Source of the DNA: a virus
Virus record (IMG/VR): IMGVR_UViG_3300018083_000066
Location: 1 to 39,355 of that record
Reading direction: 5' to 3' (one strand)
Length of the DNA stretch: 39,355 nucleotides
Below the pieces are notes generated by a model. The model was not told the origin of the DNA. It ran no database searches and worked only from the letters and a program-made list of their open reading frames with translations. Both the position numbers and the translations under genes were made by a program. Below, in pieces: positions 12,438-39,355 of this stretch; within the stretch, counting starts at the first letter, position 1, and the number at the start of each line of letters is the position of its first letter.

Positions 12438-13309
12438 TGGGCGACAGCAGAATCAGCAACGCGCTTCGAGACCTTGCCGGCGGGCTGCAGAACATCGCCG
12501 CGTTTCGCGCCGACCAGCAGCAGAAAGACGAGTCGCGTAAGTTCCAGCAGGCCATGCAGGAATCCTCGCAGGCGTTCTCCGCGCGCATGCAGGAGATCAG
12601 CATGCAGCACAGCGAGACCATGCTCGGCAAGCAGCAGGACTTCAACGCTGGCGAGTCGGACAAGGATCGCGCATTCCGTGGCGAGATGTTCGACAAGGAG
12701 CAGGGCGCTCGGATGAAGATGTTTGGTATGGAGCAGGGTGCGATCAACGCCCGCCATGCCCAGTCTCTCGGCGCGCAGTTCGAGCAACTCAAGCAGCAAG
12801 CCTCGCAAGTTGAAGACGCGAAGAAGGATCGCGACCTTCAGCGTCAGCTCAAGGTGTACGAACTCGGTGTGTCCCAAGCTTCCGGACAGCACTCCAGCCT
12901 GCTCGATCAGATGAACAAAGAGATGGGAGAGATCGCCAAGAACCCCATGCTCGCCGTCGATCCGAAGAAGTTGGCCGCAGCCAAGCAAGAAGTCAGCTCG
13001 CGCTACGCTCCGCAGCTTCAGGAGGCCACCGGCAAGATCGAAGAGAACATCAAGAAGTATGCGGGCGCGGTCGGTATCCCCGACTTCTCTGGTGTCACCG
13101 GCAACAAGGACAATCCGGAGACCAAGGCCTCTGGCGGAATGCCCGGTATGGATCGTGATAAAGTGTCGCAAGCGGTTCAAGCCGCGCAGACGCAGATTGG
13201 TGGTGGAGCCATGCCAAGCGAGCAGGCACTCGTCAACGGTTTCATGGGTAAAGGATTGACCCGTCCAGAGGCAATCGCCGCCGCCCGTCAGATGAAGGGT
13301 GGCAGGTAA
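12437..13309 (+). CDS. Coiled-coil internal virion protein, putative
   Basis: The 290-residue protein is Gln/Met/Lys/Glu-rich and looks almost wholly helical from about 15 to 160, a composition typical of packaged internal proteins. The C-terminal third has a Gly-rich linker (TKASGGMPGMDRD) and a final helix. The ATG at 12437 overlaps the previous stop (TGATG), and its own TAA overlaps the start of the giant gene (TAATG). These couplings suggest production in fixed ratio with the giant protein. No enzymatic motif was seen. Confidence 0.65.
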   Translation: MGDSRISNALRDLAGGLQNIAAFRADQQQKDESRKFQQAMQESSQAFSARMQEISMQHSETMLGKQQDFNAGESDKDRAFRGEMFDKEQGARMKMFGMEQGAINARHAQSLGAQFEQLKQQASQVEDAKKDRDLQRQLKVYELGVSQASGQHSSLLDQMNKEMGEIAKNPMLAVDPKKLAAAKQEVSSRYAPQLQEATGKIEENIKKYAGAVGIPDFSGVTGNKDNPETKASGGMPGMDRDKVSQAVQAAQTQIGGGAMPSEQALVNGFMGKGLTRPEAIAAARQMKGGR

Positions 13310-16300
13310 TGCCGACCAACTGGAAGCCGGATGGAGCGTTCGACTTCTCGGAACCGGAAGCCACTCAGGCTCCCGGTTCTTCGTTCGGTGAGTTCGATTT
13401 CAGCGAGCCCGAGGAAGAGAACAAGGACGGGTTTACTTTCAGCTCCCTGACCAATCAGCTTCTCGCGGTCGTCAACAATCCCGCCGACTCGTTCAACTAC
13501 CTCGCCGGTCGCGCGGCGCAAGTTGGCGCGACCGCAGGCTGGCTGGTCGAGCAGTCCGGCAAGGGAGACTCGCCGCTCGGTGGCGCACTCGAATCACTCG
13601 CCCCGGGATTACAGGCCCTCCCCGATGCGGCCGGAGCTATCTTCGAGCACGGGGCCGAAGCCATCGGCCAGCAGATGCAGAAGCGCAGCCGCGAGTCCGC
13701 AGACTTCTGGCTGGATCGAGTCGGCGAAGACTTCAAGAAGAAGGCCGCTGCCGGGATCGACGATCCTGAGTTCGGCGTCACCACGCTGTACGCTGCCGCG
13801 CTCGGATCGCTCCCGGAAATGATCCTGACCATGGGGTCGGGTGCGGTGGCCGGTAAGCTCGGCGCGCTCGCCACTTCCGTCACCACAGCTCGCGTTGCCG
13901 CTGCCGCTGCCAAGGGTTCGGTGGTCGCAACCAAGATTCTCCAGTACGCCAAGTACGCCCCGACCGCAGCCGGCGCGCTGGCCGGCGGTGCGACCGAGGG
14001 AGCCATGGCCGCAGGCGCATCCGGCCTTGCCATGGAAGACCGTGTAAACGCAATGAGCCACGACGAGCTGGTCACCGGAAGCGACCGCTACCTCGCCATC
14101 TACCAGTCGGCAGAGGGAATGCCCGAGGGAGAGCGCAGGGACTACGCACGCCGCACCACAGCCGAAGAGATGGCGCGCACTACCGCTTCATGGGTGGGCA
14201 TGTCCACGGCCGTCCTAGGGGCTCCTACGGGCGGCCTGATGGGCTACCTAGGTGGCAAGGCTGCAGCCAGAGCTGGAGCCAAGGCGGTGGCCGGGAAGCT
14301 GGAGAGCAGCATCACCGGGCAGGCGCTGGCCGGCTTCGCTTCCGAGGGCGCGCAGGAGTTCATGCAGGAGGGCTCGCAGCAGTTCCTCCAGAACCTTGGT
14401 CTACGCGAGTACGCGGACAAGGGCCAGTCCCTGTCCGAGGGCGTCCTGAGTAACGCGGTGATCGGCGGGCTCGTCGGTGGCGTCATGGGTGGCTCGATCA
14501 CCCCGCTCGTCGGCAGCGGCGCTCGCAAGCAGGCCAAGGCGAAGGACAAGGCCGGGGCCGCATCGGCATCACCGGAAGCGGCAGGTAAGTTCTCGCGTAA
14601 TCCGATCTTGGAAGCGAAGATCGTCGAGCAACTGCAGCAGGTACAGGACGCGAAGATTCCACCCAACGAGTTCGCCAAGGTCGCGCGCTGGGCCGGACAG
14701 AGCGAAGCTGGTGGACGCTCGTCGCTGGAGTTCTCCAAGGCGCTAGAACAACTGATCGAAGATGGCGTTGCGCCGGAACAGGTGGAGTCCGCCATCGGCG
14801 ATGACTTCGACGACAACGGCATGCTCACCGAGGCCGCCTACGACAAAGACTCGAAGCGTCTGGCATTCGATGTCGAGATGCGGATCAAGCCGCTCGATGA
14901 CCAGCAGCGCGCAGCTACCGCCGAAGCGCTCGCGAAGAACGGCGCGAACCCGTACGTCATGAATGACGGAACCATGGTGGTTCCGCAGTCGCAGGCCGGA
15001 GAAGCTGGCCTCGTTGCTGTCGCCGAAAGCATCAAGCGTGCGGTCGGTGTCGACTTCACCATCACGAGAAAGCCGAATGAAGAGTCCAAAGATTCCGTCG
15101 CCGAAGGTGCCGAAAGCTCCGTCTCCGCCGCGCCCGAAGGTGCCGCAGTCGCCGAAGGCACCGAAGGGGTATTGAGTGAAGAAGAGATCGTCAATCCGAT
15201 CCCGCGCGACGCAACGCCAGAGCAGAAGCTCGAAGCGATCCGTGCGCTCACGGCAGAGAACAAGCCGTTGGTGGATGATTTTATTGCTCAGGTTGACGCT
15301 GAACTTGGCACTACGTCTGGTTCCAGCATCAAGGGCGACGAGCAGATCATCGAGAAGTCGAAGCGTCCGTCGATCATTGCAGAGAAGCCGTGGCACGACA
15401 TCGAACACGTGCGCGACACGTTCCGATTCAAGTCGGTAATCGACACGCCCAAGCAGCTCGAATCCATCGCCGACAAGGTCAAGGATCAGGGCTGGGAGAT
15501 CGTCAAGGTAGACGTAGAGAAGATGGCCACCCCGAAGTCGTGGGGCTGGCGCTTCGTTGCGCTGGACATGCGCATGCCCAATGGGCAGCTCGTCGAATAC
15601 TACATGCCGCTCAAGGAGCTGGAGGCCGCGAAGAAGTCAGGCGGCCACGAGCTGTTCGAGAAGTGGAGGAACCGCGATCTTTCCAAGCTTCTGGAGCAAG
15701 ACCTTCGCGAGTTCGAGTTTGACCAGACGCAGTCGTACGAGCAGTACAACTCGGCCTATCAGTCGGCTTTGTCGAGAGCCGGTTTGTCAGAGAGCGAAGC
15801 CCTCGCCTCCGCCAAGAAGTTGGCGGACAAGTTGTCGTCCACGGGGGCCAAGGCCTCCATGAAGTCGTCGGACGAGAAGTTGACGCCGCGCGACCAGACG
15901 CCATCGCGGCGCGAGGCAGCCCAGCCGTCATCCAGCACCGACACCCAAGACAAGTCTTTGTTGGCCGACACGCGCATTTCTGAACCCTCCGAAGCGGACA
16001 ATGTCACTGTAGCACAACCGGGGAAGCACGTCACCGTCACCCCAGAGGCAGGCCCAGCGGGCATCGAGGCCATGGGCCGGGGTGCCGCCGTCCATCCGGA
16101 AAGCCCGCACGAGGCCCCCTCCACGCGCGAGCTGGTGGCCGGAAACTACCCCAAGGGACACGGCACCCTGAAGGGCCAGACCGCACGCGAGAACATCAGC
16201 GTCTCCATCGAGAACGTCCCGGGCTCGATCCGGCGCGCGGTCGACGGTGGCTGGTCGCGCAAGATGAAGCACTGGTACGGCTACATCCGTGGCACCAAGG

Positions 16301-19300
16301 ACGTGGGCGACGGGAAGCTAGATGTCTACATCGGGCGTAGTGCCTACGACAACACGCTGCCGGTCTTCGTGATCCGGCAGATGGAGACCAACGGCGCGTT
16401 CGACGAGCCGAAGGTCATGCTTGGTTATGCCAGCGAGGGAGAGGCGAAGAACGCCTACCTGTCCGAGTATCCTGCCGCCCTTGGGTCGCGCCTGTTCGGC
16501 GGCATTACGCGCATGACGCGCGCCCAGTTCGCTTCCTACCTAGAGACGGGAGATACCGACGTGCCGCCGCACCCGGTGTCGAAGAAGCCGATGGTTGAGC
16601 TGCGCGGAGATATTTCGTTGAGCTTGCGCAAAGTGGCGAAGATGCACGACCCTTCGCAGAGCGGAACGTCATTCAAGAACACGGTGCTTTACCACGGCAC
16701 CAGCCGCAACATTGTCGGGGATTTTGAACGGAGCAAGATCGGGGCTATGGGTCCGGCCGTCTACCTTTCTCCATACAAGGATGTCGCTGGCCCGTACGGA
16801 AAGAACCTGATCGCGGTTAGCGTGAGCGGCAAATACTTGTCGAACATGCAGTGGACGGATTACATCAATAAATATGGTTGGGAAGGCGCAGAAGCCAAAG
16901 CCATCAATGATGGTTGGGCTGGAGTATTCGATGAGAAATTTGAAGATGCGGTTGCGGTATGGAACCCGAAAGACATCACAAAAATATCGACCAAGGGGAA
17001 AAGGGTCATCGAAGCCGGGGCGCGAGAAACGCCCGATACAACCTCCGCCTTGTTGCGAAACCTGACGCCCAAGGAACAGGTCAAGGTCACGAAAGCCACG
17101 GCTACAAAGATCGTCTCAATTCTGGAGAACATGCCCGATCCTGACGAAGTGGCTGCTGTCGCGTTCGCCGGTCGCGCGAAGCGCGGTTGGTATCGCCAGA
17201 GTGCAGAGGCCATCAGTGAAGTGTTCGGCATGGACGCGCCGCGATTCGCTGGCCTGTTGGCCGCGATGTCGCCGCAGACTAGCGTGCAAAGCAATCTGCG
17301 CAATGCGCTCAACACGTGGGTCAACTGGGATGCAGCCGGTCGCCCGCAGAGCAAAGCCGAGATCACCCAGATCATGGCCGGTAGCGTTGAAGGTGGCGGC
17401 GGCATGTTCTCCGTTCTGCCGGCGTGGATAAACAACACCGTGCGCGCCCTGACCACGGAGAACCCGGCTGACATCGGGCTGTCCGGGCCGAAGGTCGATA
17501 GCTTCATGCGTAACCTCGTGGGCAATGTCGACGAGGTGACCAACGACACATGGATGGCGAACTTCGCTGCCGTCGACCAGAAGATTTTTGCCGGCACTCT
17601 GTTGGCATCTGGTGACCCGGGCAAGCGCCCCGGGTATCTGGCCATGAGTTCGCTCGTGCGCTCCGCCGCGCGCCGCCTGACGGAACTCACCGGGGACAAC
17701 TGGTCGCCGGCCGAGGTGCAGGAGACCGTGTGGAGCTGGTCCAAGACCGTGTTCGAGATGGCCGACTCTGCCGGTGAGATTCGCAACGCCGAAAGCATCG
17801 TGATGGACCGCGATGTGACGGACGAATTACTGCAATCTACCCCTGATTTTGGTACTCTGTTTACGCATGGCGAATACGCCAGCATTCTGGAGGAACATGG
17901 CTATGGTGAACAAATCGAGCGAATCCGTGCTCGCCGACCTGTTGCTGGCAAAGCTGTCGCCGAAGCCGGCTCTAAAGAAGAAGCAGGCCCGTTTGCTCGG
18001 GATACTCAGGTCGAACTCGAACGCAAAACCGCGAAGCGCCTTGACGCTCTCCGGCAAAAGCGGAACCAAAGAGTAAGCGAGGAAGTCCCCTTCAGCCTGC
18101 GTCGCCCGGTGGCCATGGACGACTTCGCGGTCGCGCCGGCCAAGGCGTTCAAGAAGCCCGGATGGGCAATCCTCACCGCGACTCGCGAAGCGGCTGGCGA
18201 TGCGACTAATGATGTAAACGTAGCGGCTAACGAGAAGCTGGCCGGCGAGCTGATGAAGCTCGGCGTTGAGTTCCGCCGTGTCAGCGGCTCGTACCAAGGT
18301 GTCGACCAAGGTGCCAACTTCCTGATCCTCGCAGACGAGGCCACCGCCAAGGCGCTCGGCGCTCGCTACGGACAGGAGAGCGTGCTGACCAATCGCGGTC
18401 TCGTGTACATGGATGGGCGCGTCACCCCGGCGATGCATGCCAACGACATCATCGGAGACGCTGCCCGCAACGAGGACTTCTTCAGCGAACTCAACGGAGA
18501 AGCGTTCTCCCTTGGACTGGACTTCGATGCCACGTCTTCCGAAGCTGCGCCGATGGAGAACATCGACGTGGACATCGCCGAGGGCGAGAACCTGATCGAA
18601 GTCAGCCGCATCGTTGACGACATCGCGAAGAACATCAAGGGCCGCCCCGGATACGAGACGGTCGCCAGCGAGAAAGACCTTCCAGCGCATGCGTTGCGCC
18701 AGATCAATTCCATGGGAGCCAACGGCCTTGTTGAAGGATTCTTTGATCCGTCCACGCAAAAGGTATTTGTCATCGCGAATAATGTTTCGCAACGCGAGGG
18801 TGAAAGCCTTGACGCTGCGGTTGAACGCATCTTCGCCGAAGAAACGCTCGGACACTACGGACTATATTCAACGCTTGGCAAAGGAGCGATGGACAAGCTA
18901 CTGGATCAGGTATGGCGAGATTTTAAGAACGACCCGGCCATGCGATCCATCGTCGATGACTATGCCAACGCCTACGGAAATCCTCACTACGACCAGTCCT
19001 CTGCCCGCAAGATGGCTTACGAGTTCGCCGCCAAGACGGACCCGAGCGTAAGCCCGTCGCTGTGGCAGAAGATGATGGCATGGCTGCGCGAAGGCCTGCG
19101 CCGCATCGGCTACGTGCGCGAATGGAGCGATGGCGATCTGCAGTTCCTGATGAGCCGCGTGTTCGACTCCGTTCGCAGCGGCACCGTTTCCTCCAGTCTG
19201 GAGAAGCTCGGCGCTTCGCTTGTGCAGGTAGAAGAGAACATTACCGAGTCGGTTGGACCGGATCGCTCCATCGTGTACGGACAGGACGGTACGCGCCAGA

Positions 19301-22281
19301 TCACTGCCGATAATTACAGCGCTGTCATCTACGACGGTGGAGTGGGCAGCGCCCCGGCGGCGGGCATCATCAGCTTTAGCGGCGACCTTCGTTCCCTCGC
19401 GTCCTATCTGGCGAACGAGGGCAAGAAGCGTGTCGTGGCTATCGAAGGCTCCCTGTCTGACGATCAGCTCGCTGGCTTCGAGCACTACAACGAGGATGGC
19501 GCGACCATCATCGACATCTCGGAAATGGCCGCAGAGGAAACCCCTGCCTTCAGTCTGCGCAATCGCCAGCGCGGAAGCGAAGACATCGAAGCGATCCTCG
19601 AAAAGACGATCCAGTCGCACACGTCGGAACTCAGCTTCGGCCACCGTATGGCGCAGTGGTTCCGCGAGATGACCGGGTACTTTGGTAGCGCTGATACGTG
19701 GCTGGAGTTGAAGACCGGGTGGGTAGACTCCGCTGCCATCATCGAGAAGCTGGAACGCAGCAAGTTCGGCGGCATGCTGCTCGATGCTGCTGAGTCGGCG
19801 TACAAGTTCGTTAGCCTCACCAAGAACCAGCCGCAGGTTATGGCCGCCATCTCCAAGCACGGCATCCCCGTGTATCAGGACGGCTCGTTCGTGCGCGTGC
19901 CCGGACGCAAGGGCCTGTACGAAATCTTCATGCCGCTGTTCAAATCCGAGAGTGGAAAGAACCTACTGCACCTGTGGGAAGGGTATGCGGTTGCGCGTCG
20001 CAGCTCGCAGCTCATCAATGAGACCAACCCGGACGGAACGAGCAAGGAGAAGTTGCTGGCTCCTGACGAGATCGACAAGCTGATCCGACTCGAAGACGAG
20101 TACCCGGAGTTCGCCAAGGTGTTCGACGACTGGCAGGAGTTCCGCAGTCAGGCGCTGGACCTTGCCGTCGAACGCGGCGCGCTGGATAGGGAAACGGCCG
20201 AGCTGTGGAAGAAGAACGACTACGTTCCGTTCTTCCGCGTCGAAGAGGATGAAGACGTTGCCGGCGGCATCTCGCGCAAGCGTGGCTTCTCTGGTCAAAA
20301 GGTAACCAGCAAGCGCTTGACCGGCAGCGACCGACGCATCCAGCCAGTACTGGAGAACATCGTGATGAACACCGCGTCGATCATCGACAAGGTGTACAAG
20401 AACGAAGCGATGAACCGTATCGTGGCACTCGCCGATGGCGTGGCCATGACGCAGGAGAAGCTGCGCACCGAGGCGGTGAAGATCGGCAACGAGCAGATCA
20501 AGGCCGCGCTGGAGAAAGCTGGACTCTCGGTTGGAACGCTGACGCCGGAGCAGGAGGAGCAGTGGACCACGTTCTTCCGCCGCGTGCGTCCGGAAGGCCA
20601 CGATGTCGTGAGCGTGATGGTGGCCGGCAAGCCGGTCTACTATCGCGTGCATGATCCGCTGCTGCTGCGCGCCATCATGGACATGTCGCCCGTCAACTTC
20701 GGCGCACTCGTGGATTTCATGGGCGGAGCGAAGCGGCTGCTCACTTCGATGGTTACGCTCGATCCGGCGTTCATGGCTCGCAACTGGATGCGCGACACGC
20801 TGTCCTCGTGGGCCGTGGTCAACGAAAGCTTCCGTCCGTTCCGTGATGCGCCCAAGGGTGCCGCAGAGGTATGGATGGAGTCCGGTCTCGCCGTCGATCT
20901 CGCGATGACTGGCGGCATGACGGGTGGCTTCTACAACCCGACGCAGGACTTCGGCGACGTGATGAAGAGCGTGGCTGGCGCGAGCGTGCTGGACAACCCC
21001 GGCAAGCTGGTCGACGCATACAAGAAGATCGGCATGGTGTCGGAGCAAGTCAATCGCATGGCCATCGCGAAGGCCGTTCTCCGTCGCGGTGGCTCCATGG
21101 CGGAAGCTGCATATCAGGCGCAGGACGTACTCAACTTCTCGCAGACTGGCGACGCCGTCGCGGCGCAACTGCTGATCCGCACCGTGCCGTTCCTCAATGC
21201 CCGCATCCAAGGCCTGTACCGCCTGTGGAAGGGAGCCAAGGGGCTGGATGGTCGCGACCCGAAGAAGGCCATGATGGCGTTCTTCATGAAGGGGCTGTTC
21301 CTGTTCGGCGTCTCGATGGCGCTGGCCCTGAAGAATCGCGGCGACGAGCGCTACGAGAAGCTGCCGGATTACCAGAAAGACACGTACTGGCACATCTTCG
21401 TGGGCGACAAGCACTACTCCATCCCCAAGCCGTTCGAAGTTGGCGTCATGTTCGCCACGCTGCCGGAGCGCGCCATGCGTCTGGCCGCCGGCAACGACAA
21501 GGGTCGGACCACGGTGATCTCGATCCAGCGCGCCCTCATGGATACGTTCGCGTTCAACCCTACGCCGCAACTGTTTAAACCTATCGTCGAGCAGTGGGCC
21601 AACCGCAGCTTCTTCACCAACCGCCCCATCGTCGGGCAGGAGCTGGAGGGGTTGGAGCCGGTCGCCCAGTACAACCCGTGGACCAGCGAGACCGCCCGCG
21701 CCGGGGCCAGCATCATCGACCAAGTCGTGCCGGACAGCATGCGCCGGTTCGTCCCCGAGACGTTGCGGTCGCCCGTCCGCATGGAGCACGCCATGCGCGC
21801 CTACCTTGGCACGATAGGCGGCTACCTCATGCAGGCCTCAGACGCCGCCCTACGGGTCTCTGGCGCGTTCCCAGAGGCACCCGCGATAGGTAGCGTCCGG
21901 GACATCCCGGTGCTCGGCAGCGTGGCAGGGAGCTTCGTACGGGGCGATCCGGAGCTGGAGCCCAGCTCGAAGTACGCCGATGACCTCTACGCCGCACTGG
22001 ACGACGCTGACGCCGCGTACCGGACGATGAACGCCTACGTCAACCAAGGTAATCTGGAGGCCGCCCAGCGCCTCACAGGCAAGCGCATGGACGCCCTGAC
22101 GGTGCGCCCGGTCCTGCACGACTTCCAGCAGGCCGCATCCGAGATCAACACCATGCAGCGCCGGATCATGAGTTCGGACATGACGCCGGAAGAGAAGCGG
22201 GCCGCCATGGATGAATTGACGCGAACGAAGAACGCCCTGATGAAGCAGGCCGTCCCGTATCTGGCCCTCATGAACTACTGA
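13309..22281 (+). CDS. Giant polyvalent ejection protein with several anti-host-type domains
   Basis: 2990 residues. From the N-terminus: disordered start; Ala/Gly-rich hydrophobic region (about 165-405); RelA/SpoT-like domain (about 690-790; R702-D703, W745-E763); inorganic-pyrophosphatase-like domain (about 937-1085); ADP-ribosyltransferase-like domain (about 1123-1235; YHGTS at 1128, Y1152); HhH/glycosylase-like domain (about 1246-1497); DUF3293-like domain (about 1595-1710); zincin-like domain with EETLGH at 1844-1849, where HExxGH is expected (about 1751-1958); and an LPD38-like C-terminal half (about 2130-2990) with a membrane-like helix near 2655. Such polyvalent proteins are known to be packaged and injected ahead of or with phage DNA to counter host defence. 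FSLR-like linkers occur at 1104, 1595 and 2081. Domain names are by pattern recognition; RelA-like, HhH and DUF3293-like are less certain than PPase, ART and LPD38. Confidence 0.9.
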   Translation: MPTNWKPDGAFDFSEPEATQAPGSSFGEFDFSEPEEENKDGFTFSSLTNQLLAVVNNPADSFNYLAGRAAQVGATAGWLVEQSGKGDSPLGGALESLAPGLQALPDAAGAIFEHGAEAIGQQMQKRSRESADFWLDRVGEDFKKKAAAGIDDPEFGVTTLYAAALGSLPEMILTMGSGAVAGKLGALATSVTTARVAAAAAKGSVVATKILQYAKYAPTAAGALAGGATEGAMAAGASGLAMEDRVNAMSHDELVTGSDRYLAIYQSAEGMPEGERRDYARRTTAEEMARTTASWVGMSTAVLGAPTGGLMGYLGGKAAARAGAKAVAGKLESSITGQALAGFASEGAQEFMQEGSQQFLQNLGLREYADKGQSLSEGVLSNAVIGGLVGGVMGGSITPLVGSGARKQAKAKDKAGAASASPEAAGKFSRNPILEAKIVEQLQQVQDAKIPPNEFAKVARWAGQSEAGGRSSLEFSKALEQLIEDGVAPEQVESAIGDDFDDNGMLTEAAYDKDSKRLAFDVEMRIKPLDDQQRAATAEALAKNGANPYVMNDGTMVVPQSQAGEAGLVAVAESIKRAVGVDFTITRKPNEESKDSVAEGAESSVSAAPEGAAVAEGTEGVLSEEEIVNPIPRDATPEQKLEAIRALTAENKPLVDDFIAQVDAELGTTSGSSIKGDEQIIEKSKRPSIIAEKPWHDIEHVRDTFRFKSVIDTPKQLESIADKVKDQGWEIVKVDVEKMATPKSWGWRFVALDMRMPNGQLVEYYMPLKELEAAKKSGGHELFEKWRNRDLSKLLEQDLREFEFDQTQSYEQYNSAYQSALSRAGLSESEALASAKKLADKLSSTGAKASMKSSDEKLTPRDQTPSRREAAQPSSSTDTQDKSLLADTRISEPSEADNVTVAQPGKHVTVTPEAGPAGIEAMGRGAAVHPESPHEAPSTRELVAGNYPKGHGTLKGQTARENISVSIENVPGSIRRAVDGGWSRKMKHWYGYIRGTKDVGDGKLDVYIGRSAYDNTLPVFVIRQMETNGAFDEPKVMLGYASEGEAKNAYLSEYPAALGSRLFGGITRMTRAQFASYLETGDTDVPPHPVSKKPMVELRGDISLSLRKVAKMHDPSQSGTSFKNTVLYHGTSRNIVGDFERSKIGAMGPAVYLSPYKDVAGPYGKNLIAVSVSGKYLSNMQWTDYINKYGWEGAEAKAINDGWAGVFDEKFEDAVAVWNPKDITKISTKGKRVIEAGARETPDTTSALLRNLTPKEQVKVTKATATKIVSILENMPDPDEVAAVAFAGRAKRGWYRQSAEAISEVFGMDAPRFAGLLAAMSPQTSVQSNLRNALNTWVNWDAAGRPQSKAEITQIMAGSVEGGGGMFSVLPAWINNTVRALTTENPADIGLSGPKVDSFMRNLVGNVDEVTNDTWMANFAAVDQKIFAGTLLASGDPGKRPGYLAMSSLVRSAARRLTELTGDNWSPAEVQETVWSWSKTVFEMADSAGEIRNAESIVMDRDVTDELLQSTPDFGTLFTHGEYASILEEHGYGEQIERIRARRPVAGKAVAEAGSKEEAGPFARDTQVELERKTAKRLDALRQKRNQRVSEEVPFSLRRPVAMDDFAVAPAKAFKKPGWAILTATREAAGDATNDVNVAANEKLAGELMKLGVEFRRVSGSYQGVDQGANFLILADEATAKALGARYGQESVLTNRGLVYMDGRVTPAMHANDIIGDAARNEDFFSELNGEAFSLGLDFDATSSEAAPMENIDVDIAEGENLIEVSRIVDDIAKNIKGRPGYETVASEKDLPAHALRQINSMGANGLVEGFFDPSTQKVFVIANNVSQREGESLDAAVERIFAEETLGHYGLYSTLGKGAMDKLLDQVWRDFKNDPAMRSIVDDYANAYGNPHYDQSSARKMAYEFAAKTDPSVSPSLWQKMMAWLREGLRRIGYVREWSDGDLQFLMSRVFDSVRSGTVSSSLEKLGASLVQVEENITESVGPDRSIVYGQDGTRQITADNYSAVIYDGGVGSAPAAGIISFSGDLRSLASYLANEGKKRVVAIEGSLSDDQLAGFEHYNEDGATIIDISEMAAEETPAFSLRNRQRGSEDIEAILEKTIQSHTSELSFGHRMAQWFREMTGYFGSADTWLELKTGWVDSAAIIEKLERSKFGGMLLDAAESAYKFVSLTKNQPQVMAAISKHGIPVYQDGSFVRVPGRKGLYEIFMPLFKSESGKNLLHLWEGYAVARRSSQLINETNPDGTSKEKLLAPDEIDKLIRLEDEYPEFAKVFDDWQEFRSQALDLAVERGALDRETAELWKKNDYVPFFRVEEDEDVAGGISRKRGFSGQKVTSKRLTGSDRRIQPVLENIVMNTASIIDKVYKNEAMNRIVALADGVAMTQEKLRTEAVKIGNEQIKAALEKAGLSVGTLTPEQEEQWTTFFRRVRPEGHDVVSVMVAGKPVYYRVHDPLLLRAIMDMSPVNFGALVDFMGGAKRLLTSMVTLDPAFMARNWMRDTLSSWAVVNESFRPFRDAPKGAAEVWMESGLAVDLAMTGGMTGGFYNPTQDFGDVMKSVAGASVLDNPGKLVDAYKKIGMVSEQVNRMAIAKAVLRRGGSMAEAAYQAQDVLNFSQTGDAVAAQLLIRTVPFLNARIQGLYRLWKGAKGLDGRDPKKAMMAFFMKGLFLFGVSMALALKNRGDERYEKLPDYQKDTYWHIFVGDKHYSIPKPFEVGVMFATLPERAMRLAAGNDKGRTTVISIQRALMDTFAFNPTPQLFKPIVEQWANRSFFTNRPIVGQELEGLEPVAQYNPWTSETARAGASIIDQVVPDSMRRFVPETLRSPVRMEHAMRAYLGTIGGYLMQASDAALRVSGAFPEAPAIGSVRDIPVLGSVAGSFVRGDPELEPSSKYADDLYAALDDADAAYRTMNAYVNQGNLEAAQRLTGKRMDALTVRPVLHDFQQAASEINTMQRRIMSSDMTPEEKRAAMDELTRTKNALMKQAVPYLALMNY

Positions 22282-35301: not shown

Positions 35302-35565
35302 ATGTCGTACCGTTCGCTGGAAGACGACATCAAATGGCTCGTGATCCAAGCCGAGATCAAGGTCAAGCTGGAGTCTCGCGTCAGTGGCACTACCGATGTC
35401 TTCCGTATCGACGACGGAAAACTCCTCTTCATTGCGAACGTCAACACATTCGGCGAGGTGTATGGGTATTACACAGGCATCGAACGAGCACTTGATATCG
35501 GCGTCGATGCATTGGTAGATCACTTCACCAAGCGCGTGGCCGACAACTACAGGAAGAAGCCATGA
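35302..35565 (+). CDS. Hypothetical protein, 87 residues
   Basis: The ATG follows AAAAGGGG. The product is mixed alpha/beta with a central FRIDDGKLLFIANVNTFGEVYGYY strand pair and a helical end. Its stop overlaps the phosphoesterase gene start. No family known to me. Confidence 0.65.
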   Translation: MSYRSLEDDIKWLVIQAEIKVKLESRVSGTTDVFRIDDGKLLFIANVNTFGEVYGYYTGIERALDIGVDALVDHFTKRVADNYRKKP

Positions 35566-36749
35566 CTACCGAATTGAAATGTCCCAAGTGTGGAGGTGTC
35601 GGTGTAAGGGGCAGCACCGGGCGAGGCCAATGCAAGAAGTGCAACTACGGCGGCGTGCTGTACATGTTCGACCAAACAGGGATGGCGGCAAGGCTGAAGG
35701 AATTGCAGAGTCAAAACAGATCGCTGGAACAAGAGAACAAGCGCCTGTCCGCCGAGTCTTCCGATGTCGCGGCACTGCGTCAGATGATCGGCACCATCGG
35801 GTCTCGAATTATCACGCCGGATTCCCCTGCGTGGCTGCTGCCGAAGCCGAGTGGCAAGGGTACGGTCCACGGTATCCCCACCCTCATGCTCTCGGACCTG
35901 CACTGGGGCGAGGTGGTTTTTCCTAAGCAGGTAAACAACATCAACTCCTACAACGTGACCATCGCCAAGAAGCGCTTGGCTCGCGTCGTAGAGGGCTCCG
36001 TCCGTCTGCTGCGGGAAACCCTATCCCCGGGCCTCTTCGGTGGCATGGTGGTCATCCTAGGCGGCGACATGGTGGACGGTGCGATCCATGATGAGCTGCG
36101 CGAGACAGGCGAGCTGACCGTGATCGAGTCCGTCATCTCGGTCCACGATGCACTGGTCCCCCACCTGTACGCACTGGCCGATGAGTTTGGACGTTTACAC
36201 GTACCCTGCGTCGCCGGCAACCACGGCAGGCTGGACAAGAAGCCTCGCATCAAACAGCGCCAGAAGCTCAACTTCGACTGGATGCTCTACCAGTTCCTCG
36301 CGCGCACCATCGCCGAGAGCAAGTACAAGGACAAGATCACCTTCCAGATTCCGGATGGTGATGATGCGTCGTATCGCATCTACAATACCGGCTACCTGCT
36401 AACGCATGGCGACAAGTTCACGGGTGGCAACGGTATCTGCGGCCCGATCTTGCCATGGATGCGCGGCGACATGAAGACGCGCAAGCAGTACGGTGCCATG
36501 GGCCAGAGCTACGACTGGATGGCCATGGGCCACTGGCATCAGCTACGATATCTGGACGGCATCATCGTCAACGGATGTCTCCCGGGATTCAACGAGTACG
36601 CCATGCGAATGGGCTTCGGCTGCGAGCCGGCACAGCAGGCGCTATGGCTGACACACCCGGTACGTGGGCTGACATTCCGCGAGGCGATATGGGCAGACGA
36701 GCCGTTGAACAAAACCAGTAGGGAGCCGTGGGTTTCCGTTTCAAAGTGA
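35562..36749 (+). CDS. Zinc-ribbon metallophosphoesterase
   Basis: The 395-residue protein joins an N-terminal zinc ribbon (C7-x2-C10, C24-x2-C27), a coiled coil (about 43-75) and a calcineurin-like phosphoesterase. Motifs are SDLHWGE (D112, H114), GGDMVDG (D169), GNHGR (N220, H221), THGD and a late GHWH. Metal-dependent phosphodiesterase or nuclease activity is expected. The zinc ribbon and coiled coil suggest DNA binding and oligomers. Downstream genes are nucleotide-metabolism types. Substrate unknown. Confidence 0.88.
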   Translation: MTTELKCPKCGGVGVRGSTGRGQCKKCNYGGVLYMFDQTGMAARLKELQSQNRSLEQENKRLSAESSDVAALRQMIGTIGSRIITPDSPAWLLPKPSGKGTVHGIPTLMLSDLHWGEVVFPKQVNNINSYNVTIAKKRLARVVEGSVRLLRETLSPGLFGGMVVILGGDMVDGAIHDELRETGELTVIESVISVHDALVPHLYALADEFGRLHVPCVAGNHGRLDKKPRIKQRQKLNFDWMLYQFLARTIAESKYKDKITFQIPDGDDASYRIYNTGYLLTHGDKFTGGNGICGPILPWMRGDMKTRKQYGAMGQSYDWMAMGHWHQLRYLDGIIVNGCLPGFNEYAMRMGFGCEPAQQALWLTHPVRGLTFREAIWADEPLNKTSREPWVSVSK

Positions 36750-36765
36750 CCAAGTGAGAGAGCCA

Positions 36766-37296
36766 ATGAGAATCGTGACACTGAACTTCGACGCGGATGG
36801 ATTCGTGTTCAACTTCGACGACCACTTCAAGGATCGCTTCGACCGCGACCCGAATGAGATGGAGAGCAGGGAGATATGCGAGCTGATCGCATCCGTCCCT
36901 GACTTTTACTACACCATGCCGGTGATGGAGGGGGCGCACGAGTTCCTGTATATGGCCACTACGCGCCCGGTAGAGGGCGACATTGTTTTCGTGAAGCGCA
37001 TCCTGACGGCATGTCCTCATATCGACGCGCCAACCTTCGAGAACTTCGCTACCCAGAAGAGACGTGTCGTCGAGAGGCATTTTGGGAAGAGCTTGACGGT
37101 AACGCCGGTTCCCGGCTCGCGTTCCAAGTACCTGTACATGGGCCATGATAATGATCTGCTGATCGACGATTACGGGAAGAACTGCGAGCAGTGGATTGCC
37201 GCTGGTGGGGCCGCAATCAAGCACAACAGCTTTGAGGAAACCTCGTATCGGTTCTTTGAGTACCTGAGCAACATTGTCACTGGAGTTCTGGCATGA
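36766..37296 (+). CDS. HAD-type 5'(3')-deoxyribonucleotidase, putative
   Basis: I take the ATG at 36766 (176 residues), with GTGAGAGAG as ribosome site. The HAD nucleophile motif is FDADGF (D9, D11), and the NT5C-like end is LLIDDYGKNCEQW. A central FVKRILTACPHID and EETSYRFF end also fit. It would remove 5'- or 3'-phosphates from deoxynucleotides. It overlaps the diphosphohydrolase-like gene by four bases, so both could act in one nucleotide pathway. Confidence 0.72.
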   Translation: MRIVTLNFDADGFVFNFDDHFKDRFDRDPNEMESREICELIASVPDFYYTMPVMEGAHEFLYMATTRPVEGDIVFVKRILTACPHIDAPTFENFATQKRRVVERHFGKSLTVTPVPGSRSKYLYMGHDNDLLIDDYGKNCEQWIAAGGAAIKHNSFEETSYRFFEYLSNIVTGVLA

Positions 37297-37859
37297 GCAA
37301 GCGACTGATCGACGTGCTCGGACGCGAGAACTTCCCGCTGGCTGATGGGTTCCTGCATTACTTCCCGGATGCAATGGCGTTGGTATCCAACGTCAGCTTG
37401 GTCGGAGACCGTCAGCACAATGACGGTAAGCAGCCGATGCACTGGTCGCGCGGAAAGTCAACCGACCACGACAACAAGATACTCAAGCATCTGGAGGGCG
37501 GGGAAGACGAGGACACTGACGGCACGTTGCACGCAGCCAAGGTAGCGTGGAGAGCAATGGCACGCCTGCAGGAACTTGCCGAGCGCAAATACGGGCTCGA
37601 TCTTCCGGCGCGGGCATGGGTGGATAGCCCGGAGCCGGAACCTGCGGTCGCTGGAAGCGTAATTGAGTTTGAGTATCGCGATGGCCAGATGTGGTACGTG
37701 CATAACGGTGGCGGTAGACCGGTCGCTGCTGGAACCAAGGTCCAGATTGAGTTTCGCCTTGGCCCTAGCGAGCGTCCCGTAATCGGATTCGCTGAAAGTC
37801 TAAAGTGGCACCACGACGGGCTTGGTGGTGACATTATGTCGTATCGGATTATAGAATGA
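37293..37859 (+). CDS. dATP/dGTP diphosphohydrolase-like (MazZ-type) protein
   Basis: The N-terminal about 100 residues (LADGFLHYFPDAMALVSNVSLVGDRQHN style, then MHWSRGKSTDHDNKILKHLEGG and DTDGTLHAAKVAWRAMARLQ) follow the pattern of the dATP/dGTP diphosphohydrolase N-terminal domain. The C-terminal 80 residues are a beta domain (IEFEYRDGQMWYV) of unknown role. This family includes enzymes that trim dNTPs to dNMPs in phages with altered bases. Overlap with the nucleotidase suggests joint work. No PurZ-like gene is in the window. Confidence 0.65.
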   Translation: MSKRLIDVLGRENFPLADGFLHYFPDAMALVSNVSLVGDRQHNDGKQPMHWSRGKSTDHDNKILKHLEGGEDEDTDGTLHAAKVAWRAMARLQELAERKYGLDLPARAWVDSPEPEPAVAGSVIEFEYRDGQMWYVHNGGGRPVAAGTKVQIEFRLGPSERPVIGFAESLKWHHDGLGGDIMSYRIIE

Positions 37860-38113
37860 TCTCTCACTCGCAAATTCTCTACGATGCCATTGGGCCGAGA
37901 GAGATTACTTCGACCGAGCTATCCGCGATCACCGGGATCACTATGCGGATAGTAAAGGCTCGCCTCAACACGATGCGCGACTGCGGCCGTGTTGCCGTGG
38001 TGCGCACCGAGGTTCACGGACACTCCACGGTCAACGTGTACGTGCGCGACGATAATCCATCGGCAGCCACTGGCCTGTGCCGGCTTTCCAACGAGTGGTT
38101 GAAGCGAGCCTGA
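37856..38113 (+). CDS. Winged-helix DNA-binding protein, 85 residues
   Basis: The ATG overlaps the previous stop (ATGA). The run ITSTELSAITGITMRIVKARLNTMRDCGRVAVVR (about 17-50) has the helix-turn-helix plus wing pattern. It ends in TGATG with the terminase start. It may regulate late genes or assist packaging; context only. Confidence 0.65.
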   Translation: MISHSQILYDAIGPREITSTELSAITGITMRIVKARLNTMRDCGRVAVVRTEVHGHSTVNVYVRDDNPSAATGLCRLSNEWLKRA

Positions 38114-39355
38114 TGGACGCGAGTCGGTACTACGGATTGAAGGAGCCCGTGTTCTCTTCCAAGGAAGAGGCCGACCAGTTCGCTGCGTGGATTGTTTCCT
38201 TCCAGAACAGGCCGCTGGACTTTACGCTGACCATGTGGCCATGGGGGATACCTGATACCCCGCTGGAGCACAGCCAGCTCGAAGACTGGCAATTCAATAC
38301 CCTGCTGGAGCTGCAGGCCGAGCTACTGCGTGACGAAGTAAACGAGATCGCGGCGCACAAAGCCGGCAAGGTTTACAACGCAGTTTACAGATACGCGCGC
38401 CCTGCCGGCCATGGCGTGGGCAAGACGGCCGGGTTCGCCCAGCTCGTCCACTGGTTCGAGTCCACGCATCCCAACGGGGTCGCTGTCATCACCGCGTCGA
38501 CCGAGAACCAGCTCCAGACCAAGACGTGGCGCGAGTTGCGCAAGTGGCAGGAGCTGGCCATCAATGGCTGGATGTTCGAGTGGAGCGCGACCCGGTACAA
38601 GCACAAGGGCAAGCCCGAGACATGGTATGCATCGGCCATCCCGTGGTCGGAGTCCAACCCGTCCGCATTCGCCGGCACGCACGAGCGCTACGTCTTCATC
38701 GGGTTCGATGAGTCCAGCGGTATCGCCCCGGTAATCTGGGAGACCATCGAGGGAGCGCTGACCACGGGTAAGTGCTTCTTCTTCGCCTACGGCAACCCGG
38801 TCGAGCCCACGGGTGGCTTCTTCGACATCTGCAACAAGCTGCGCCATCGCTGGAACATCGCCACACTGGATGCGCGCTCGGTCTCGTTCGCCAACTTGAA
38901 GCAGATTCAGGAGTGGATGGAGGATCACGGGGAGGATTCCGACTTCTTCCGTGTTCGCGTCCGTGGTGAGTTCCCCCGCTCGGCCGCCAACCAGTACATA
39001 GACCAAGGCAGGGTGGCCGAGGCTCGCCGCCGGCAGATCGAGTGGCGTGACGTACCGCGTGCCCACCCGCGCCTCATGGGCGTCGATGTAGCGCGTCAGG
39101 GCGGGGATCGGAACGTCATCATCATGCGACAGGGGCGGAAGATGGCCCCGAGGATCACCCGGTTCTACGAGCGCGACCTGATGAAGGTGGCCAACACCGT
39201 GGCCCGGGCGATCAGGGAGCAGAAGCCGGACGTGGTCTACGTGGACGAGGTCGGCATCGGTGCCGGCGTGGTCGACCGCCTGCGCCAGCTCGGCTACGAC
39301 ATGGTGGTGGGCGTCCAGTCTGGCTCCAAGGAGGGCATGGACGAACGCGAGAAGA
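38113..39355 (+). CDS. terL: Terminase large subunit, 3' end missing
   Basis: The frame from the ATG at 38113 runs off the window after 414 codons. The ATPase half has a Walker A at RPAGHGVGKT (96-105), Walker B at FIGFDE (D199, E200) and an AYGNP segment as coupling motif. The RNase-H-like nuclease domain starts at GVDVARQGGDRN (D325) with YVDEVGIG (D378, E379). The enzyme cuts and pumps phage DNA into the head. Its small-subunit partner is likely the minus-strand gene at 26212, far away, an unusual arrangement. Confidence 0.95.
   Translation, partial: MDASRYYGLKEPVFSSKEEADQFAAWIVSFQNRPLDFTLTMWPWGIPDTPLEHSQLEDWQFNTLLELQAELLRDEVNEIAAHKAGKVYNAVYRYARPAGHGVGKTAGFAQLVHWFESTHPNGVAVITASTENQLQTKTWRELRKWQELAINGWMFEWSATRYKHKGKPETWYASAIPWSESNPSAFAGTHERYVFIGFDESSGIAPVIWETIEGALTTGKCFFFAYGNPVEPTGGFFDICNKLRHRWNIATLDARSVSFANLKQIQEWMEDHGEDSDFFRVRVRGEFPRSAANQYIDQGRVAEARRRQIEWRDVPRAHPRLMGVDVARQGGDRNVIIMRQGRKMAPRITRFYERDLMKVANTVARAIREQKPDVVYVDEVGIGAGVVDRLRQLGYDMVVGVQSGSKEGMDEREK

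Follow-up and report, generated by a model that had tools for sequence, protein, structure and literature searches.

A tandem of metallophosphoesterase, deoxyribonucleotidase and DUF5664 genes in a tailed phage as a probable deoxynucleotide-disposal module

Three adjacent genes of a tailed-phage contig encode a metallophosphoesterase, an NT5C-like nucleotidase and a DUF5664 protein, and our analysis confirmed that they are real and coupled. Judging from the families involved, the phage probably uses the trio to dispose of deoxynucleotides, with dNMP as the central intermediate. We observed the genes, the families to which they belong, the intactness of their catalytic motifs and their co-occurrence or fusion elsewhere, and from these we infer the activities, substrates and purpose. 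In relatives and across unrelated viruses, DUF5664 repeatedly adjoins or is fused with a predicted dNMP-consuming enzyme, either NT5C or a DUF4406/NDT-like protein. The component families are already known; the coupling is the new evidence.

Three coupled genes and their predicted products

The window that we analysed is the whole IMG/VR virus entry IMGVR_UViG_3300018083_000066, 39355 bases in length. Its left end falls inside the major head protein gene (phrog_1357, E 1.7e-9) and its right end inside the gene of the terminase large subunit. Thus, a packaging/head stretch is missing from the record, which we guess from podovirus maps to be about 4 kb long. The remaining genes are an ordinary tailed-phage set, i.e., a helicase, a primase zinc-ribbon protein, NinB/Orf, a RecA-dependent nuclease, RecT, a YqaJ/RecE-like nuclease, SSB and a polyvalent protein of 2990 residues. 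The features at and behind the trio are:

35562..36749, + strand: Mre11/SbcD/PolD-DP1-like metallophosphoesterase with a zinc ribbon at its N-terminus and a coiled coil (phrog_284); predicted 3'-5' DNA exonuclease
36766..37296, + strand: HAD-type 5'(3')-deoxyribonucleotidase, NT5C-like (phrog_2643); predicted to turn dNMP into deoxynucleoside and phosphate
37293..37592, + strand: DUF5664 domain (PF18909, below cut-off); predicted dNTP pyrophosphohydrolase (dNTP to dNMP and PPi)
37641..37859, + strand: beta-rich extension at the C-terminus of the DUF5664 protein, without Pfam family
37856..38113, + strand: small HTH-like protein (weak MarR-type phrog match, E 0.009)
38113..39355, + strand: terminase large subunit, truncated at the record end (phrog_2, E 2.5e-29); start inferred from the overlap, the ORF list giving 38077

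The metallophosphoesterase and nucleotidase genes are spaced by 16 bp, and the nucleotidase and DUF5664 genes share the four bases ATGA. The same ATGA overlap joins the DUF5664 gene to that of the small HTH-like protein, behind which the terminase gene follows. Homologs of the three genes were found by tblastn in 270 (metallophosphoesterase), 102 (nucleotidase) and 21 (DUF5664) phage records. Scans of IMG/VR viral contigs with each of the three single proteins returned no relative, and an alignment-based scan with the DUF5664 gene returned at least 588; a plasmid search with this gene gave no match. With homologs in these phage records and at least 588 IMG/VR relatives of the DUF5664 gene, the trio is more than a product of chance. 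An initial annotation of the sequence had proposed three coupled phosphate-removal genes of these enzyme classes, and the family matches, the 16-bp gap and the ATGA overlap bear this out.

The metallophosphoesterase (395 aa) consists of a zinc ribbon, a long helix and the phosphoesterase domain. The ribbon, already named in the initial annotation, is visible in the spacing C7-x2-C10-x13-C24-x2-C27. It is kept in the relative L017 (61% identity in the alignment), there with a weak Zn_Ribbon_TF match, and in relatives more distant than L017 the N-termini differ. The protein matched phrog_284, annotated as 'exonuclease', with an E-value of 5.9e-42; the Pfam Metallophos family did not match, and a PDB sequence search gave nothing meaningful. 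Its alignment contains a full metal-site set (D112, H114, D169, N220, H221, H282, H324, H326), which we take to be the two-metal-site motif of metallophosphoesterases. The best fold match of an AlphaFold2 model (mean pLDDT 64.4) was archaeal PolD DP1 (Z 13.0, rmsd 4.4, 229 aligned residues), followed by Mre11 (Z 12.6, rmsd 4.3, 201 aligned residues) and SbcD (Z 12.2). GpdQ (Z 11.1-11.2) and purple acid phosphatases (Z 10.7-10.9) came close behind at this model quality, and Foldseek placed Mre11 on top (E 7.3e-6). As DP1, Mre11 and SbcD rank ahead of GpdQ and the purple acid phosphatases, if by a small margin, the modeled fold suggests that the protein is likely a DNA exonuclease releasing 5'-dNMP. 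Pfam scans of those window proteins that were scanned revealed no Rad50/SbcC or PolD family. In MW202713, UOF80916 ('chitinase A') adjoins the metallophosphoesterase; we rejected it as a candidate nucleotidase, as it appears lysozyme-like by reading of its sequence.

The nucleotidase matched phrog_2643, '5'-3' deoxyribonucleotidase', with an E-value of 2.4e-29. Searches were performed from position 36772; the likely start is the ATG at 36766, and a GTG at 36754 also appears in the ORF list. The single sequence matched neither PF06941 nor any entry in a PDB sequence search, and a profile of seven phage proteins matched structures of human cytosolic 5'(3')-deoxyribonucleotidase (E 1.3e-8). The HAD catalytic residues D7, D9, K119, D132 and D133 (numbered from 36772) are invariant in all eight aligned proteins.

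Residues 23-98 of the DUF5664 protein match PF18909, the N-terminal domain of dATP/dGTP diphosphohydrolase, at 25.3 bits (E 1.5e-5), just under the Pfam cut-off of 27; all 50 viral relatives that we scanned exceed this cut-off. Pfam detects no DUF550 (PF04447) in the protein; in the control from phage SH-Ab 15497, the domain is detected. The beta-rich extension has no Pfam family and matches phrog_9174, 13874 and 26870, all annotated as function unknown; tblastn found it in three phage records. The identity of the DUF5664 protein to its 21 tblastn homologs is 42-52% in 17 records and 35-36% in the other four, and at none of these matches is a nucleotide hydrolase annotated. A PDB sequence search returned nothing meaningful. 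A predicted structure (mean pLDDT 73.6) found no PDB match and nothing above noise, a result that speaks neither for nor against the all-alpha NTP-PPase fold that we had expected.

In a tree of 87 rows, the DUF5664 of the record belongs to a subfamily of 72 rows, separated by a 100/99 split from 15 others, among them the Wayne protein and the MazZ domain of SH-Ab 15497; the tree has long branches, which the tool flags as prone to doubtful joins. The two groups are homologous by profile (hhalign E 3.7e-5, probability 71%). Assays were found for the 15-row group only and for no member of the 72-row subfamily. The distance of the record's subfamily from the assayed proteins speaks against a disposal module, as does the lack of a PDB match for the predicted DUF5664 structure. 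Of the MazZ-type label in the initial annotation, a remote DUF5664 domain thus stands; the label does not extend to DUF550, and the assayed Z-phage proteins lie on the other side of the split.

The long branch to the assayed family and the extra C-terminal domain would fit a protein that has lost catalysis and acts in binding or regulation. Moreover, the acidic GED..D..G..H loop is missing in the relatives from SIO1, P12053L, ICBM1, phiL7 and MedDCM, so that activity may not be universal in the subfamily. We nevertheless give such a loss little credence for the protein of the record, as it keeps the loop together with W51, H66, D74 and H80, and H66, D74 and H80 are invariant across 63 aligned rows.

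Genomic partners of DUF5664

To describe the neighborhood of DUF5664, we kept 80 loci, the best 80 of the at least 588 IMG/VR relatives. Our sample comprised 50 of these, i.e., 40 on contigs of at least 30 kb and 10 added loci. Five of the added loci had shown a positive result before they entered the sample, namely L017 and L019 for the metallophosphoesterase and L020, L050 and L094 for the DUF4406 fusion. Near-identical contigs, e.g. L031 and L032, remain in the sample. A phrog_284 metallophosphoesterase is present in 18 of the 50 records and lies no farther than 1.5 kb from DUF5664 in 14 of these, as compared to 1.5 by random placement. DUF4406, which is NDT-like, occurs in nine records, eight times within 0.7 kb and in five of these as a fusion. 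The NDT family PF05014 was found in five records, four times within 1.5 kb, with only two matches above the family cut-off. NT5C was detected in two records, each time within 250 bp of DUF5664, a result matched in 23 of 20000 random placements. Restricting the analysis to the 40 longer records and dropping G021 as a near-copy of G025 left 10 of 14 metallophosphoesterases within 1.5 kb, and five of six DUF4406 and both NT5C genes within 0.7 kb, so that records selected purely by length gave the same picture. As phage metabolic genes cluster anyway, random placement is a generous null; the fusions, on the other hand, disfavor chance neighbors. Sequence comparison ties DUF4406 only weakly to NDT (one member matches PF05014 at E 0.0013; PDB NDT E 0.51), and we take both to be placed in one clan by Pfam.

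Two IMG/VR loci combine NT5C with DUF5664 as separate genes. In IMGVR_UViG_3300029914_000023 (L037), the metallophosphoesterase, NT5C and DUF5664 follow each other in the order and on the strand seen in our record, with overlapping genes. In L038, DUF5664 is followed by a 72-residue ORF and then by NT5C (PF06941, E 4.7e-43). Maribacter phage Panino likewise carries separate DUF5664 and NT5C genes in this order, 3 bp apart, the NT5C match being below cut-off. Furthermore, a DUF5664-NT5C fusion was recovered from 16 phage records as a single tblastn piece covering at least 80% (seven Cellulophaga, one Leptolyngbya and eight Salinibacter, some of them duplicate deposits). Pfam recognized both domains in all five fusions scanned (three phages, two IMG/VR loci), with NT5C above cut-off in one of the five. 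The fused DUF5664 belongs to the 15-row group on the Wayne/SH-Ab side and not to the subfamily of our record. As far as our searches went, with subscription journals outside them, neither the fusion of DUF5664 with NT5C or with DUF4406 nor the order metallophosphoesterase-NT5C-DUF5664 has been described, and the literature so covered names DUF5664 without mention of a nucleotidase.

In the proposed disposal module, the DUF5664 enzyme would split dNTPs into dNMP and PPi, by analogy with the stand-alone DUF5664 of phage Wayne, which is reported to turn dATP, dUTP and dGTP into dNMPs with an about tenfold higher kcat on dATP than on dGTP (PMC12884076). The Mre11/DP1-like exonuclease may supply further dNMPs from DNA, and the NT5C-type nucleotidase would turn dNMPs into deoxynucleosides, thereby barring simple recharge by host kinases. 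Where an NDT-family partner is present, it could instead cut the base off the dNMP, as base cleavage has been reported for the NDT-family DmtZ of Z-phages (PMC12884076); either step would stop recharging. DUF5664 and NT5C may not share a substrate, since a human NT5C enzyme is described as acting on dTMP and dUMP (PMC12697855) and Wayne DUF5664 prefers dATP. The detection of NT5C in only two of the 50 relatives also counts against the module and makes the nucleotidase an optional partner. The module may serve to reshape the dNTP pool of the infected cell, much as T5 Dmp acts on dNMPs. Among the options named in the initial annotation, dNTP depletion is the one best supported by our data.

More tentatively, DUF5664 together with a dNMP consumer (NT5C or a DUF4406/NDT-like glycosidase) may possibly constitute a two-step module of wide distribution, by which phages with ordinary DNA irreversibly clear selected purine dNTPs and which Z-DNA phages recruited later. 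Our record would then carry a version with a third step, contributed by an Mre11/DP1-type exonuclease.

The same genes could also serve a T5-style breakdown of host DNA combined with anti-salvage. Nucleosides produced from host DNA by the exonuclease and the nucleotidase would then be exported, and DUF5664 would be a minor sanitizer (e.g. of dUTP). The resemblance of the metallophosphoesterase model to the Mre11 and PolD DP1 exonucleases and the recurring linkage of metallophosphoesterase and DUF5664 would agree with this. However, NT5C is fused to DUF5664 and not to a nuclease, and 48 of the 50 records carry DUF5664 without a detected NT5C, so that we regard this explanation as unlikely. Highly improbable in our view is counter-defence, i.e., a shift of dNTP levels by the trio that evades host systems sensing or exploiting dNTPs. 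Clover is reported to sense dTTP, and phages escaping it were mutated in dmp and nrdA/B (PMC12265719). These escape mutations hit the phage nucleotidase gene itself, which argues that the nucleotidase gives no protection there, and the record holds nothing defence-specific.

DUF5664 and base-substituted DNA

The initial annotation had noted that the MazZ-type N-terminal pattern is linked in other phages to dATP/dGTP handling, base-substituted genomes included, and that no PurZ was in view. The latter statement held, as PF00709 has no match in the record, itself a fragment with its end stretch missing. Outside the record, we searched PF00709 in 95 distinct records with DUF5664, with phiVC8 as PurZ control. 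All three Z-phage controls were positive and the other 92 records were negative. The negative set is made up of 68 of the 80 nearest IMG/VR relatives, seven named phages of the record's subfamily, 12 IMG/VR records found with the Cellulophaga fusion and five further named phages; as many of them are fragments, the result is not proof of absence for each. Within the record, no family A polymerase (PF00476) was detected. Its absence has to be read with S-2L in mind, which is reported to use PrimPol, so that a DpoZ-type family A polymerase is not universal in Z-DNA systems. Pfam scans of the scanned window proteins also revealed no dNTP-synthesis or base-modification family.

DUF5664 is moreover frequent, the Wayne domain matching 832 and the SH-Ab domain 678 phage records. 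It is reported from canonical-genome Arthrobacter phages, placed beside those with PurZ0 (PMC12884076). Being common and present in these phages, DUF5664 by itself is no marker of base-substituted DNA.

If the trio cleared a canonical dNTP to let its modified counterpart into the DNA, this would be in line with the presence of DUF5664 in PurZ and PurZ0 phages (PMC12884076) and with the removal of dTMP by a PF06941 nucleotidase in the dU-DNA phage PBS1 (PMC12697855). Given the negative searches in the record, its relatives and the seven named phages, we consider base substitution or modification highly improbable. Its Z-DNA form we reject as unsupported, with neither PurZ nor a family A polymerase in the record and no PurZ in 68 relatives. 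Nothing that we found points to a new base-modification route.

Comparison with known systems

Among phage nucleotide genes, DUF5664 is very common, and every assayed example that we found stems from a Z-DNA phage. Its fusions and neighborhoods with two unrelated types of dNMP-consuming partner, seen in phages without a detected PurZ, suggest a general and testable role in the permanent removal of deoxynucleotides. They are also a warning against reading DUF5664 as a sign of modified DNA.

The DUF5664 protein of Arthrobacter phage Wayne (gp51) shares with that of our record the absence of DUF550 and the conserved W, RH, D and H core. It differs by an identity of only about 26%, by its position on the opposite side of the 100/99 split and by its C-terminus, the record protein having a different extension; PurZ0 adjoins the Wayne gene, and our search of the record yielded no PurZ. 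MazZ of Acinetobacter phage SH-Ab 15497 (DUF5664 and DUF550) has the PF18909 domain in common with the record protein, which lacks PF04447 and again comes from a record without a detected PurZ.

T5 Dmp and PBS1 Dtm resemble the predicted nucleotidase in being dNMP phosphatases with which phages dispose of deoxynucleotides (PMC12265719, PMC12697855). T5 Dmp is a precedent for the purpose of disposal (PMC12265719), its gene being reported as dispensable in the laboratory (PMC8108384), and Dtm, a PF06941 enzyme, is one for a role in base substitution (PMC12697855). In contrast to our trio, no DUF5664 partner is mentioned for either enzyme in the consulted parts of PMC12265719 and PMC12697855.

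The arrangement of L037 matches our record in order, strand and gene overlap. Its metallophosphoesterase belongs to another subfamily (PF00149 E 0.002, not phrog_284) with no zinc ribbon visible. The fusion protein of Cellulophaga phages phi38:1 and Calle_3, annotated as '5' nucleotidase' or hypothetical, contains the same two predicted activities, which would lead from dNTP via dNMP to the nucleoside. There, they reside in one polypeptide that starts with a DUF5664 of the classic subfamily, whereas our record encodes them in two genes, the nucleotidase first, and adds a metallophosphoesterase.

The acidic loop and annotation of the DUF5664 family

A GED..D..G..H loop is present in the DUF5664 protein of the window, a predicted dNTP pyrophosphohydrolase, and in most of its relatives. 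It is missing from the relatives in SIO1, phiL7, P12053L, ICBM1 and MedDCM-OCT-S45-C18, which may be inactive or use another site. Public records PP885686.1 (gp31), NC_004466.2 (orf30), PP496472.1 and PP496454.1 annotate DUF5664 genes as 'endolysin', with 'inhibits RNA polymerase' added in two of the four. This name does not fit the DUF5664 domain and looks like a transferred misannotation.

37641-37859, C-terminal extension of the DUF5664 protein

The extension, which closes with a W..H....DI..YR pattern, matched three PHROGs, none with an assigned function. A similar tail is found at L051:5586-6116, a relative locus.

Nucleotide-metabolism and pyrophosphatase genes

L047:7570-10270, ThyX, endonuclease VII/NDT-like fusion, small ORF, dCMP deaminase and DUF5664
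13309-22281, polyvalent protein of 2990 residues with LPD38, inorganic pyrophosphatase, DUF7178 and DUF3293 domains

The listed genes of relative locus L047 stand in a single row and form a compact nucleotide-metabolism island that includes DUF5664. In the polyvalent protein, a Pfam scan assigned the pyrophosphatase domain to PF18823 (E = 2.2e-28) and returned a weak ADP-ribosyltransferase match. If this pyrophosphatase and the DUF5664 protein meet, any PPi-releasing DUF5664 reaction would be pulled forward.

N-terminal modules of the metallophosphoesterase

L005:11800-13038, L027:8545-9756 and L089:7675-8910, metallophosphoesterases with an apparent helix-turn-helix N-terminus

Judging from the sequences, the enzymes of these three relative loci appear to begin with a helix-turn-helix, whereas the Mre11/DP1-like metallophosphoesterase of the window carries a zinc ribbon, as if nucleic-acid-binding modules had been swapped on a single nuclease core.
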